The notes below the pieces were generated by a model that was not told the DNA's origin, did not search any database, and saw only the letters and a program-made list of their open reading frames with translations. The position numbers and the translations under genes were made by a program. This document shows positions 28,707 to 34,225 of a stretch of 64,000 nucleotides of DNA, piece after piece. Origin of the DNA: Thermomicrobium sp. CFH 73360 (lineage in GTDB: Bacteria > Chloroflexota > Chloroflexia > Thermomicrobiales > Thermomicrobiaceae); assembly GCF_023806465.1 (NCBI RefSeq), contig NZ_JAMSLS010000001.1, forward strand, positions 124,001 to 188,000. The letters are read 5' to 3'. The number at the start of each line of letters is the position of its first letter. Within the stretch, counting starts at the first letter, position 1.

Positions 28707-29117
28707 GTGGAAACATGGCTGCCTTTTGTCAATACCGCGTTGATCGCTGTGAGTGGACTTAGCGCCCTGATCGGTTTCATCGCTGTTCGTTCGCAGCGTA
28801 TTTCTCTTCATCACAATGCGATGCTGACGGCAGCTGTCTTCGCCGCGCTCTTCCTCGTGGTCTACGTCCTTCGGTATTTCCTCCTTGGAACCAAACTCTA
28901 TACAGGTGAAGGCTGGGTGCGCATCGTGTACTTCACGGTGCTTATCTCTCACACGATCCTGGCCATTGCGCTTGGACCACTCGTCCTGATTACGCTGTCG
29001 CGAGCGCTTCGCCGGGAGTTTCGACGTCACCGCGCCATTGCCCGGATTACGCTTCCCGTGTGGTTTTACGTCGTTGTGACCGGCTGGATTATCTACGTCA
29101 TGCTCTACGGACTATGA
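28707..29117 (+). CDS. DUF420 membrane protein
   Basis: The predicted protein has 136 residues with four hydrophobic segments (WLPFVNTALIAVSGLSALIGFIAV; AAVFAALFLVVYVLRYFLLG; IVYFTVLISHTILAIALGPLVLITL; FYVVVTGWIIYVMLYG). Conserved His residues sit at helix ends. DUF420/CtaM-like proteins are linked to cytochrome oxidase maturation, but the role here is untested. GTG at 28707 with GAAGGGAA upstream, the only reasonable start. It overlaps the next gene by ATGA. Confidence 0.8.
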   Translation: METWLPFVNTALIAVSGLSALIGFIAVRSQRISLHHNAMLTAAVFAALFLVVYVLRYFLLGTKLYTGEGWVRIVYFTVLISHTILAIALGPLVLITLSRALRREFRRHRAIARITLPVWFYVVVTGWIIYVMLYGL

Positions 29118-30232
29118 CGATGACCTTCCGCCCAACTATCGTCATCGTTTTGGATGGCCTTGACCCGATGTACCTCGAGAGCACGGAGACGCCGAACCTG
29201 GAGGCGCTCGCCACCTACGGCTCCTTCCGCTTGGTCCAAGCTGTCATTCCCACTGTGACGAACGTGAACCACGCCGCGATCATCACCGGCTCTTTCCCGG
29301 AACGAACGAGGATTGTCAGCAATTTTCGTTTCGATCCCAAAACCCGTCAGGGTACCTTCATCGAGACAGCGGAGTTCCTCGCTGCGCCGACGATCCTGGA
29401 ACGCGTAGCCCAGGCTGGCGGAAGGACTGTACTCATCACCTCGAAACGAAAACTTCTCCACTTCTTGGGACGCGGCGTGCACACGGCAGTCACCGCCGAG
29501 CAACCGCCGGATGACCTCGTAGCGGCACTTGGAACTCCACCACAGATTTACTCAGAGACCGTTGACGATTGGACATTACAGGCACTGCTGTACATCGTGG
29601 AGCACTTCCATCCGGACCTGGTTTACTGCACCACAACCGATTACGCCCTACATCGCTGGCCACCCGGAACTCCAGAAGCCCGGCATTACCTGACCCAGAT
29701 CGACCGAAGGATCGGCGAACTCCTCCAGCGTGTTCCCGACCACCGTATTGTCGTGACTGCGGATCATGGCATGCGTGCCAAACGGCGTGCAATCGACCTC
29801 GCAGCAGCGTTGGCGCACTATGGAATCGAGGCGACATTTGTACCCCCGATCCGCGACCGCTATGTCGTCCATCATCAGAACATGGGCGGTGCGGGGTACG
29901 TGTTCGTCCATCGCGGCTCCGTTGAACAAGCACGCGACATTCTCGCCGGACTGCCCGGCATTGAGGCTGTTTACGACTCTGGACAGGCTGCTGACTTGTT
30001 CCACCTGCCGATCAGCGATATTGGTGACCTCTTTGTGCTCGGCGACGAGCACACTGTCTTTGCTCCCTCAGGAACATTACCGACCATCGCGACTGAAATC
30101 GACCTCCGGAGCCATGGCAGCCGGCACGAAGCCATTGTTCCACTTTGGGGCCTTGGGACCGACGTGTCGACTGCTTCTTGGAATATCGACGTTCCACGTC
30201 TTCTCGGTCTAGCGTCGGAGGGACGAGCGTGA
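29114..30232 (+). CDS. Alkaline-phosphatase superfamily enzyme, phosphonoacetate hydrolase (PhnA)-like
   Basis: The protein has 372 residues. The two-metal phosphatase/phosphodiesterase fold is clear: Asp14 in VIVLDGLDP, Thr49 nucleophile in IPTVTNVNHAAIITG, TTTDYALHRWPPGTPEA, VTADHGMRAK and LRSHGSRHEAIVPLWG. These blocks, plus TSKRKLLHFLGRG and RDRYVVHHQNMGGAG, match phosphonoacetate hydrolase as I recall it better than nucleotide pyrophosphatases. That enzyme splits the C-P bond of phosphonoacetate to acetate and phosphate. Substrate by homology only. It overlaps DUF420 (ATGA) and the ABC ATPase (GTGA). Confidence 0.75.
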   Translation: MTMTFRPTIVIVLDGLDPMYLESTETPNLEALATYGSFRLVQAVIPTVTNVNHAAIITGSFPERTRIVSNFRFDPKTRQGTFIETAEFLAAPTILERVAQAGGRTVLITSKRKLLHFLGRGVHTAVTAEQPPDDLVAALGTPPQIYSETVDDWTLQALLYIVEHFHPDLVYCTTTDYALHRWPPGTPEARHYLTQIDRRIGELLQRVPDHRIVVTADHGMRAKRRAIDLAAALAHYGIEATFVPPIRDRYVVHHQNMGGAGYVFVHRGSVEQARDILAGLPGIEAVYDSGQAADLFHLPISDIGDLFVLGDEHTVFAPSGTLPTIATEIDLRSHGSRHEAIVPLWGLGTDVSTASWNIDVPRLLGLASEGRA

Positions 30233-31920: not shown

Positions 31921-32736
31921 TCATTGCAGCAGTTCAAAAAGATCCTCCAATGGCAACGTCCGAAGTTTTGTGAACTCGGTACTCGGTAAGGCGCGGGGAA
32001 CCACGACCAGTGTTCGTTCTCGCCAATGGAACGCGATGGCCTCTTCGCCACTCACCAGCAACCGGCCACTGGCGAAGGTCGCTCCGGTGAGCGCCTGCAG
32101 CACGTCCGCCAGATGGCAGAGTTCGGGACGAACGCTGACCGTCACCGCGAGTTCGGCGTCCTTTGGCCGGACCTGCCAGGAAACACTCACATACTGGATC
32201 AAACGTGCCCCCGTCACGACCCAGGGGCACAGCTCCCCGTGAAAGTTCATCGCCTCAAGCTCGTATTCGGCGAGCCGTTCGGCGCTCGCCAGGTCAATCA
32301 AATACCGATCGCGTGAACTCCGTGCAGAAAAGATGCAGTCCCAGCTTGGCGAGTAGCGCTTCAGATCGACAACCAACGTACCGTCAATGAAGTCAAGCGG
32401 AGCCACACGCAATCGGGTCCCTTCAACCGCCAGCAGGCGGGTCGCTGTCAGCGCAATCGGGTTGGGGCGCGCGACTGAACGCAGTCCAAAGACACCTCGG
32501 CGACGGCGGGGCGGCTCGTACTCGGGGCGCACCAGTTGCAGTCGCTCACGATCAGCATCAACGAACCAGCCTAGAACCCAGATATGGCTGTTCTCCTCAA
32601 TGCGCAAAAGACCATCAGCAAATTCCGGATACACCTCGATCTCCGCTTGAACCCCACCGGGCGGCATCAACCGGCGATCGGCCACCGGAGAATGCACGAC
32701 CCCGATAGGGACCACTTCAAACGTCTCGAGACTCAC
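31921..32736 (-). CDS. TrmO (TsaA)-FmdE fusion protein
   Basis: The predicted protein has 271 residues from GTG at 32734-32736. Residues 6 to about 150 are the TsaA/TrmO domain: PIGVVHSP, RGVFGLRSVARPNPIALTA, PLDFIDGTLVVDLKRYSPSWD. TrmO uses S-adenosylmethionine to methylate t6A37 of a threonine tRNA. Residues about 160 to 250 resemble FmdE, the small protein linked to the molybdenum formylmethanofuran dehydrogenase: NFHGELCPWVVTGAR, VRPELCHLADVLQALTGATFASGRLLV. Cys170, Cys207 and His166 are candidate metal ligands. It follows a molybdoenzyme gene by 22 bases, which may bear on the FmdE half. The two domain calls are by motif only. Confidence 0.78.
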   Translation of the reverse strand: MSLETFEVVPIGVVHSPVADRRLMPPGGVQAEIEVYPEFADGLLRIEENSHIWVLGWFVDADRERLQLVRPEYEPPRRRRGVFGLRSVARPNPIALTATRLLAVEGTRLRVAPLDFIDGTLVVDLKRYSPSWDCIFSARSSRDRYLIDLASAERLAEYELEAMNFHGELCPWVVTGARLIQYVSVSWQVRPKDAELAVTVSVRPELCHLADVLQALTGATFASGRLLVSGEEAIAFHWRERTLVVVPRALPSTEFTKLRTLPLEDLFELLQ

Positions 32737-32758
32737 CTCGCCTGCCCCCGTTTCTCCC

Positions 32759-34225
32759 TCATGCGGCTGCTCGGACTTCGACGGTGATTCGGTGGAATCC
32801 AGTCGCCCCCTCGGGCAAAGGCGGTCGCTCCTGCTCTTCTTGTAGCGCTCCCGTTCCGTCCCAGGCGCGCACCACCAGCCGATACCGTCCTGGCACGGTC
32901 GGGCGCCACATCGTCCACCAACGCACCCAGCTGAAGCGAGAAAGTGGGGCCTCACGCTCGACGTCCTGCCACGTCGTCCCACCGTCCGTGGAAAGTTCGA
33001 CGCGGGCGATTCCCCGATCTCCCGCAAAAGCGATGCCTCCAACGAACACATCCTGGCCAATGGGCAGGACGCTTCCGCCACGTGGCACGTCGATCCGTGA
33101 ATGGATTTGCACAACAGCTGTATCGCTCCACCCGCGTTGCTGCCAGAACCCAAAGTAGTCAGTATCGGAAAGCTCGATCTCTGTAATCCATTTGACGTTC
33201 TTCATGCCATAGATTCCTGGCACGACCAAGCGGAGAGGGAAACCGTGCTCAGGAGGAAGTGTTTGGCCATTCAGTCCGTACGCTAAGAGAACCGACGGCT
33301 GCAGCGCCAACGACAACGGAATCGAGTCGCTGTACCCATCAGCGGCCCGCAGGATCACCTCAACAACCGGATGCTGCGGCTCGGCTTCGAGCAACAGGTC
33401 GCGGAGCGGCACGCCGATCCATTCCCCGGTACTGATGTACGGTCCCCACACGTCGTTGCTGATGCACTCCAGCGTTGAGATCATCCGTGTGCTCGGTCGA
33501 GTCCGGATCGTCGCCAGATCGAGTTCGAGCGCCCGTGTTACCCGACCGTGGATGCGCAGACGCCACGTCCCGCCATCGACCATGGGATCGGATAGGTTCT
33601 TCGACACAACATAGAAATCACCGACCGGCGTCAAAGCAGGTGGCAGCCCACGCGCATCGACCGTCCCCCGTGGGCGAGAGCGCACCTGTAATGCACTCAA
33701 CAGTCGACCAGCAGCTCCCAGCGAAAGTAAAAGCCCACCCGCGACGAGAACACGAAGGAGTTGCCGACGCTGCAGCGACAGCGGAGCGTCATTATCAGCG
33801 GTGAACGCTGCTAATCCCCCGACCAAGACCAAAGTGAGCCCTGCCGCAACGAGCCCACTCACGAAAAGAGAACCGCCCCTGCCAAGCGCCACAATGAAGG
33901 TACCGAGAGCGGTGCCCGCCGCGAGGAGACTGAGAGACCAGCGACGCGACCGCGGCCAGCGAACAAGGAGAACGGCGAAACCACCAGTCGTAAGAGCCAA
34001 GACCACGAGGATAAGAAGCAAAGCAAGCGGTTTCGCACTCGCCTCGGCAACACCGAGGATCCATCCAAATGTTTCCACCGGGATCAAGCGCGTGCTCAGC
34101 TCCAAAAATCCATGCAGAAACGTCCCCACACCGAAAATGACCTCCAGGACAAGCTGTACGACACCCCAAATCAGACCGATTGTGGCTCCGGTCCAGAACG
34201 CCGCCAAGAGTTTGCGCCTTTCCAT
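32759..34225 (-). CDS. Membrane-anchored sulfite-oxidase family molybdoenzyme
   Basis: The predicted protein has 488 residues. The N-terminal ~175 residues hold four or five hydrophobic segments (FWTGATIGLIWGVVQLVLEV; LLLILVVLALTTGGFAVLLV; LFVSGLVAAGLTLVLVGGLAAF; LLRVLVAGGLLLSLGAAGRLL). The catalytic domain carries the molybdenum ligand Cys254 in STLECISNDVWG and PLRLVVPGIYGMKNVKWI. A C-terminal dimerisation-type domain follows (VELSTDGGTTWQDVERE). Substrate unknown: sulfite or another small oxide. ATG at 34225 has GGAG eight bases upstream; a GTG at 34243 in frame overlaps the preceding stop. It is in an operon with a 73-residue protein and the TrmO-FmdE fusion. Confidence 0.88.
   Translation of the reverse strand: MERRKLLAAFWTGATIGLIWGVVQLVLEVIFGVGTFLHGFLELSTRLIPVETFGWILGVAEASAKPLALLLILVVLALTTGGFAVLLVRWPRSRRWSLSLLAAGTALGTFIVALGRGGSLFVSGLVAAGLTLVLVGGLAAFTADNDAPLSLQRRQLLRVLVAGGLLLSLGAAGRLLSALQVRSRPRGTVDARGLPPALTPVGDFYVVSKNLSDPMVDGGTWRLRIHGRVTRALELDLATIRTRPSTRMISTLECISNDVWGPYISTGEWIGVPLRDLLLEAEPQHPVVEVILRAADGYSDSIPLSLALQPSVLLAYGLNGQTLPPEHGFPLRLVVPGIYGMKNVKWITEIELSDTDYFGFWQQRGWSDTAVVQIHSRIDVPRGGSVLPIGQDVFVGGIAFAGDRGIARVELSTDGGTTWQDVEREAPLSRFSWVRWWTMWRPTVPGRYRLVVRAWDGTGALQEEQERPPLPEGATGFHRITVEVRAAA

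Follow-up and report, generated by a model that had tools for sequence, protein, structure and literature searches.

TrmO-FmdE fusion proteins recur beside molybdenum-cofactor genes and may have a role in Mo/W-cofactor handling

Proteins of the TrmO family (also called TsaA or YaeB; PF01980, TIGR00104) are class VIII AdoMet methyltransferases built on a β-barrel. In AF0241 the AdoMet is contacted by Gln22, Arg82, Asp111 and Lys122, the last of these coming from the other subunit, while the gamma- and beta-proteobacterial and mammalian members carry in their C-terminal domain a DPRxxY motif that is needed for m6t6A in E. coli (PMC4132733). For FmdE, structures have been solved, including 2glz from Desulfitobacterium hafniense, while no biochemical function was found in the portions of the literature that were available. 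The metal ligands are His15, His17, Cys19 and Cys55, but a Syntrophus FmdE structure is without two of them, so that FHGHxC together with a fourth Cys is not strictly defining for the family; only 13 of 208 FmdE genes adjoin subunits of formylmethanofuran dehydrogenase, most adjoin metal-ion transporters, and one FmdE was found with mixed Zn/Ni (PMC2954224).

That these two domain families can be joined in a single chain has been noticed before. An FmdE-UPF0066 architecture was listed in 2010 (PMC2954224), and in 2024 FmdE-tRNA-methyltransferase fusions were described in some Methanosarcinales and Archaeoglobales as cluster 663.1, with a regulatory role suggested (PMC11237513). Judged by their description these join the same two families as the group treated here; however, the available text of the two papers gives neither a Mo-cofactor gene context nor the motif FHGExC, and the 2024 set is archaeal only. 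Neither a Mo-cofactor linkage of TrmO-FmdE fusions nor FHGExC was found in a literature search that most subscription papers lay outside. A precedent for an AdoMet enzyme acting on a molybdopterin-derived compound exists in human TPMT, which methylates in the course of molybdopterin catabolism and urothione formation (PMC9607355, PMC11514484), but as this enzyme has a seven-β-strand fold and is both eukaryotic and catabolic the likeness is one of analogy only.

The gene that is the subject of this report lies in a window of 64,000 nucleotides (by which is meant the whole stretch of DNA analysed) from Thermomicrobium sp. CFH 73360, and its features are collected in Table 1. It is a single frame without an internal stop. 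The mechanically called open reading frame (31921-33153, minus strand) extends further upstream to a TTG and overlaps the neighbouring gene, so that automatic annotation could misplace the start. In the window genome the fusion is the sole match to PF01980 and also the sole match to PF02663, and its presence in 12 of the 21 genomes of the family shows that it did not arise as an isolated assembly artefact.

Table 1 Features of the fusion gene and its upstream neighbour, in window coordinates.
Feature	Coordinates	Strand	Remarks
Sulfite-oxidase-type molybdopterin oxidoreductase, 494 aa	32759..34243	-	22 bases upstream of fusion
TrmO/TsaA-FmdE fusion gene	31921..32736	-	271 aa, GTG start; Pfam, NCBIfam, AlphaFold2 model, structure match
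TrmO-type AdoMet-binding β-barrel, residues 9-137	32326..32712	-	2nv4 match, AF0241 alignment
FmdE domain, residues 157-271	31924..32268	-	PF02663 29.9 bits; 2glz Z 10.9
FHGELC motif, residues 165-170	32227..32244	-	Clade-wide FHGExC variant of FmdE metal motif FHGHxC
H208-L-A-D211	32104..32115	-	Position of fourth metal ligand (Cys55 of B8FYU2_DESHY) and conserved Asp58 (PMC2954224)

The upstream neighbour ends at 32759 and the fusion starts at 32736 on the same strand, which is exactly the spacing given in the first-pass annotation of this DNA, and its classification there as sulfite-oxidase-type agrees with its Pfam domains (Oxidored_molyb, 149.9 bits; Mo-co_dimer, 29.4 bits). It is the sole PF00174 gene in the window genome and has, by eye, a long hydrophobic N-terminal region. 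As its scores lie below the curated cut-offs for SorA (136.1 against 600 bits), SoxC (117.2 against 420), SorT (86.4 against 570) and MsrP (62 against 207), it is given no more exact name here. The other flank is occupied by an ABC exporter gene pair on the plus strand, convergent with the fusion, and with these two sets of neighbours accounted for there are no genes for formylmethanofuran dehydrogenase subunits beside the window fusion. Elsewhere in the window, at 29060-30232 on the plus strand, a gene encodes a type I phosphodiesterase that resembles phosphonoacetate hydrolase but scores 192.4 bits with TIGR02335, short of the 407.55 cut-off.

The same annotation had proposed that a TrmO/TsaA domain is joined to an FmdE-like domain, suggesting HMM searches as a check and allowing that the C-terminal part might prove not to be FmdE. 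Both PF01980 and PF02663 score above their Pfam cut-offs, TrmO_N with 84.9 bits (cut-off 26.8) over residues 29-133 and FmdE with 29.9 bits (cut-off 22.9) over residues 165-230, while NCBIfam TIGR00104 gives 103.1 bits (cut-off 93.25). The FmdE match spans only positions 1-63 of the 133 in the profile, i.e. its first half, and for this reason the fold was also checked. In an AlphaFold2 model calculated from 39 fusion sequences (pLDDT 91.4, pTM 0.82), residues 6-137 align to AdoMet-bound AF0241 (2nv4; Z 18.3, 129 residues, rmsd 1.9) and residues 157-271 to the FmdE structure 2glz (Z 10.9, 109 residues, rmsd 2.5), with further FmdE-type matches of the C-terminal part to 2gvi (Z 10.1) and 3d00 (Z 9.8); the matches that come after these are barrels of ribosomal proteins (Z ≤8.6), and involve the barrel part only. 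On the strength of the model the C-terminal half is thus a whole FmdE domain, and score and fold together uphold the proposed domain composition.

Turning to individual residues, columns were examined in 47 rows, comprising 46 fusions (among the matches listed) and locus L099. The equivalents of the four AF0241 contacts in the window protein, according to the alignment, are G27, R86, D115 and K126, so that three of the four are kept. Among the matches listed, Arg occupies the second of these positions in 46 of 47 rows and Lys the fourth, likewise in 46, while the third is Asp in 44 and Glu in the remaining 3; the first, corresponding to Gln22, is Gln in 17 of 47, in a loop where the alignment is uncertain. 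None of 46 fusion ORFs contains the DPRxxY motif, but as just 2 of 83 ORFs of non-fusion TrmO contain it (both counts among the matches listed) its absence is weak evidence.

The metal site of the window protein is altered, with H166, E168, C170 and H208 at the ligand positions. Among the matches listed, His fills the first ligand position in 44 of 47 rows and Glu the second in 42 (giving FHGExC); Cys is present at the third in 41, while the fourth has Cys in 29 rows and His in 11. By comparison, the second ligand in 40 standalone FmdE proteins from the same phylum, read by eye from the alignment, is His in 35, Arg in 4, Cys in 1 and Glu in none. FHGExC is thus a signature of the fused family, in which plausible metal ligands are kept with one of them swapped, although not every member retains the full set, L041, L042, L045, L048, L066, L082 and L099 having lost ligands. 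A separate observation is that four of the 46 fusions among the matches listed (L039, L043, L048 and L049) have a third conserved segment of about 65 residues at the C-terminus, with a CQLGCF-type end; no Pfam match over cut-off was obtained for this segment in the three fusions scanned.

The sample from which these figures come was assembled in two ways. Among 400 genomes searched in the phylum, 88 gave matches and 17, the window genome included, full-length fusions, while more loci came from a scan of a genome collection with one peptide pattern, the figures for which hold among the matches listed. With eight duplicate contigs removed (L050, L051, L054, L055, L056, L058, L063 and L083), at least 46 fusion loci were used: 22 from Chloroflexota, 14 from Methanomicrobiales-type archaea, nine from an Acidobacteriota group and one from Syntrophomonadaceae. 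Phylum labels follow the record titles, except that the group to which L061 and L062 (HR08 and HR26) and L069 (Euryarchaeota) belong was set by the tree, and L110, being truncated by a contig end, cannot be judged. The controls were non-fusion TrmO loci, 43 of them from the collection scan (among the matches listed) and 40 from the same phylum, the latter forming part of the match list of the 400-genome search. A profile of the fusion FmdE domain, which was built from 17 rows that it then itself recovered, matches 44 of the 46 fusions (L082 and L092 being the exceptions) and none of the 83 controls, among the matches listed.

A tree of 126 TrmO domains places 45 fusion rows together with L099 in one group (SH-aLRT 93), apart from the 80 standalone TrmO rows examined, and it is likely that the fused branch arose once; the tree rests on just 134 columns and has many open forks, so that it gives no branching order within the fusion group. 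Since L099 groups with the Acidobacteriota fusions, it was removed from the controls for the neighbourhood statistics, reducing these from 83 to 82. Eighteen more fusion genomes were searched for further TrmO genes using TrmO_N. The nine of Methanomicrobiales type have 3-7 matches each, with full-length standalone TrmO among them, whereas a single match was obtained in five of the six from the Acidobacteriota group and in both Thermomicrobium-group genomes, and two matches in the sixth and in the Syntrophomonadaceae genome. These counts imply that the methanogens have the fusion in addition to other TrmO paralogues, while in several bacteria there is no TrmO but the fusion. Standalone TrmO genes were also seen in close pairs, at G411:C58:50563-52313 and G415:C297:3868-5592.

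For the gene neighbourhoods, which were first viewed by eye and then counted, the yardstick was a set of 20 E. coli K-12 genes for molybdenum-cofactor (Moco) synthesis, molybdate uptake, maturation and molybdoenzymes, chosen a priori and independently of the fusion loci. Among the matches listed, a homologue of one of these lies within 5 kb of 25 of 46 fusions but of 11 of the 82 controls (Fisher p 1.4e-6), and within 500 bases of 24 of 46 as against 5 of 82. The enrichment survives dereplication: again among the matches listed, one vote per 65%-identity cluster gives 10 of 19 against 9 of 53 (p 0.005), and one vote per 55%-identity cluster gives 4 of 5 against 2 of 15 (p 0.014). By lineage, and among the matches listed, such a neighbour is present at 11 of the 22 Chloroflexota loci and all 14 archaeal loci, but at none of the nine from the Acidobacteriota group and not at the one from Syntrophomonadaceae, where ModD, which is not in the seed set, is next door; six of the Chloroflexota loci that lack one are on contigs shorter than 13 kb, and the other five are not (among the matches listed). 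As all 14 archaeal loci belong to one lineage, the 25 positive loci among the matches listed reduce to roughly six independent associations. The survey of fusions beside Moco genes that had been suggested at the outset, with the proviso that no link might be found elsewhere, thus gives such a link, as Mo-cofactor genes adjoin the fusion in other lineages, though not in the Acidobacteriota group. Co-occurrence with MoaC across the phylum was considered as evidence and set aside as uninformative, since MoaC is present in 362 of the 400 genomes and in 15 of the 17 fusion genomes.

More telling than the counts is the identity of the partners, which changes with lineage and comprises moaA-moaC, moeA, yqeB-xdhC-yqeC, fdhA-fdhD-moeA, the sulfite-oxidase type and modD. 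According to curated models, the fusion is beside MoeA domains at L043; beside YqeB (386.5 bits over a cut-off of 220), YqeC (186 over 73.05), XdhC domains and a MobA-like NTP transferase at L046; beside MoaC (224.4 over 141.5) and a MOSC domain at L048; beside formate dehydrogenase alpha (883.5 over 666.25) and a second FmdE at L067; beside FdhD (189.7 over 140.9) at L078; and beside ModD (245.7 over 178.85) at L092. Directly downstream of the archaeal fusion, L067:10685-12553 encodes a MoeA joined to a PBP_like domain. That the partner varies while the pathway stays constant is the main argument for a role connected with the Mo/W cofactor, and a step common to these pathways fits the changing partners better than one tied to any single enzyme. 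The window genome, with nine MoCoBD_1 matches, five PF00384 loci and two MoeA genes, has clients enough for a general cofactor role. Two of its PF00384 frames (DMSO reductase/formate dehydrogenase family), G000:C23:106349-107704:- and G000:C12:765485-766807:+, each contain one in-frame TGA, possibly encoding selenocysteine.

Taking all this together, we lean, with some reserve, towards the view that the fusion is a member of an old two-domain family concerned with Mo/W-cofactor handling, rather than an ordinary tRNA m6t6A enzyme. The joint statement that there is a link to the Mo/W cofactor and that the protein is not an ordinary TrmO can be made with rather more assurance, and seems to us fairly probable. 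What the protein shares with TrmO is the barrel fold, the TIGR00104 score and three of the four AdoMet contacts; it departs from TrmO in that DPRxxY is absent, the PF01980 match begins only at profile position 12, the Gln contact is replaced, FmdE stands in place of the C-terminal domain, and the tree group is a separate one. With FmdE as represented by 2glz it has in common the fold, the PF02663 score and the conserved Asp of the second motif, while differing in having FHGExC for FHGHxC, a His for the Cys of the fourth ligand, and the attached TrmO domain. It is therefore a TrmO-type barrel plus FmdE that fails some of the features of both families, and it is probably not a tRNA enzyme.

There are several other ways in which the observations might be read. 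The main rival is that a TrmO-like barrel and FmdE together handle several transition-metal cofactors (of Ni, Co, Fe, Mo and W), the fused FHGExC clade then being the branch most often found beside Mo genes. Here the pertinent loci are two at which TrmO and FmdE are encoded by separate adjacent genes, L207:2983-9500 beside LarB, LarE, a LarC fragment and CbiM, and L206:1056-4480 beside a FhuB/BtuC-type permease and a substrate-binding protein; the FmdE motifs there are FHGHxC/LHGHxC, and the pairing evidently recurs without fusion in the company of nickel, cobalt or iron genes. Such split pairs beside nickel-pincer and iron/B12-type transport genes imply that the role might extend beyond Mo/W, which would also suit the metal-transporter neighbourhoods and the Zn/Ni content described for FmdE (PMC2954224). 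In the fused loci, however, Mo genes recur under different identities, while no nickel or cobalt genes were noticed near those among the matches listed (by eye and unsystematically), and we regard the broader role as unlikely, if the one most deserving of attention. Much narrower is the idea that the fusion is a factor dedicated to maturing the sulfite-oxidase-type enzyme next to it, as the first-pass annotation had it in its strictest form. The 22-base spacing on one strand invites it, and so does the fact that 8 of the family's 12 fusion genomes have the two genes side by side. Nevertheless, of the 21 family genomes, 19 have a match to the sulfite-oxidase-type gene and seven of these have it without the fusion (the two genomes with neither are both incomplete), in the four fusion genomes belonging to genus g2 the two genes are apart, and other lineages have other Mo partners. 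That enzyme thus does not require the fusion as a helper, constant pairing of the two was rejected as a general rule, and the dedicated factor must be considered highly improbable. What survives of the original proposal of Moco or molybdoenzyme maturation is the link to molybdenum, seen in several lineages.

Its further contention, that this would be rather than tRNA modification, is harder to settle. It could be that the fusion still methylates tRNA (at t6A37), with FmdE having replaced an RNA-binding domain and the neighbourhood being incidental: the TIGR00104 score is above its curated cut-off, the Arg, Asp and Lys contacts to AdoMet are kept and, as the best support, the fusion is the sole TrmO in the window genome and in 7 of the 18 further fusion genomes searched. 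Against this stand the separation of the fusion group from the 80 standalone rows, the lack of conservation of the Gln contact, the 2-6 further TrmO_N matches in all nine Methanomicrobiales-type genomes searched and the adjacency to Mo genes, as well as the absence of DPRxxY, with the weakness already mentioned, and on this evidence a retained tRNA function is rather improbable. The contention accordingly draws on the separate group, the missing motif and the coexistence of other TrmO genes, and is weakened by the window genome having no other TrmO. We would place at much the same low level the possibility of a non-catalytic sensor or regulator, binding AdoMet and a metal or oxyanion and controlling the expression or activity of molybdoenzymes. 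A regulatory role is what was suggested for the archaeal fusions (PMC11237513), and the extra C-terminal segment in 4 of 46 fusions among the matches listed could by eye be helix-turn-helix-like, but most members have no recognisable DNA-binding part, a Pfam regulator domain scores over cut-off in none of 10 fusions scanned, and the Arg and Lys contacts are kept in 46 of 47 rows among the matches listed.

If the preferred reading, a part in Mo/W-cofactor handling, is correct, a mechanism may be sketched from the two domains, the AdoMet barrel of class VIII type at the N-terminus and the FmdE domain, with its altered metal site, at the C-terminus. The protein would be a dimer that binds AdoMet between its two barrels as in AF0241, with K126 supplied by the partner chain; the FmdE groove would hold a Mo/W-pterin species, or a precursor of one, at the metal site, and the barrel would methylate a group on the pterin so held, most plausibly a thiol or an amine. 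Such methylation might serve for storage, for exchange between enzymes or for turnover. The next choice of substrate would be a protein, i.e. an apo-molybdoenzyme or a MoeA-like partner. It is the conserved contacts alone that suggest the use of AdoMet in this step. That the barrel methylates a molybdopterin species at the FHGExC site, and so carries out a prokaryotic AdoMet-dependent methylation of the Mo/W cofactor, is put forward tentatively, as a specific proposal that is considerably less likely right than wrong.

The fused FHGExC family with its changing Mo-related partners nonetheless turns a vague annotation into a question that can be tested, namely whether there is AdoMet-dependent chemistry on the Mo/W cofactor or on a carrier protein. 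At present the fusion proteins receive a curated tRNA-enzyme name by virtue of their TIGR00104 score, and if either kind of chemistry were confirmed the annotation of TrmO-FmdE genes would need correction in several phyla. Cofactor methylation in particular, if true, would provide the first biochemical role for the FmdE family and would mean that a branch of TrmO has left RNA modification.

A final observation, which also counts in favour of the preferred reading, concerns FmdE in its standalone form. A homologue of an E. coli Moco seed lies within 5 kb of 11 of 40 standalone FmdE loci, a figure that rises to 13 of 40 if nitrate-reductase beta (NarH), a seed added post hoc, is counted as well; in a genome of the same genus (L226:4689-8275) standalone FmdE adjoins narH and a narJ-like gene on the same strand.
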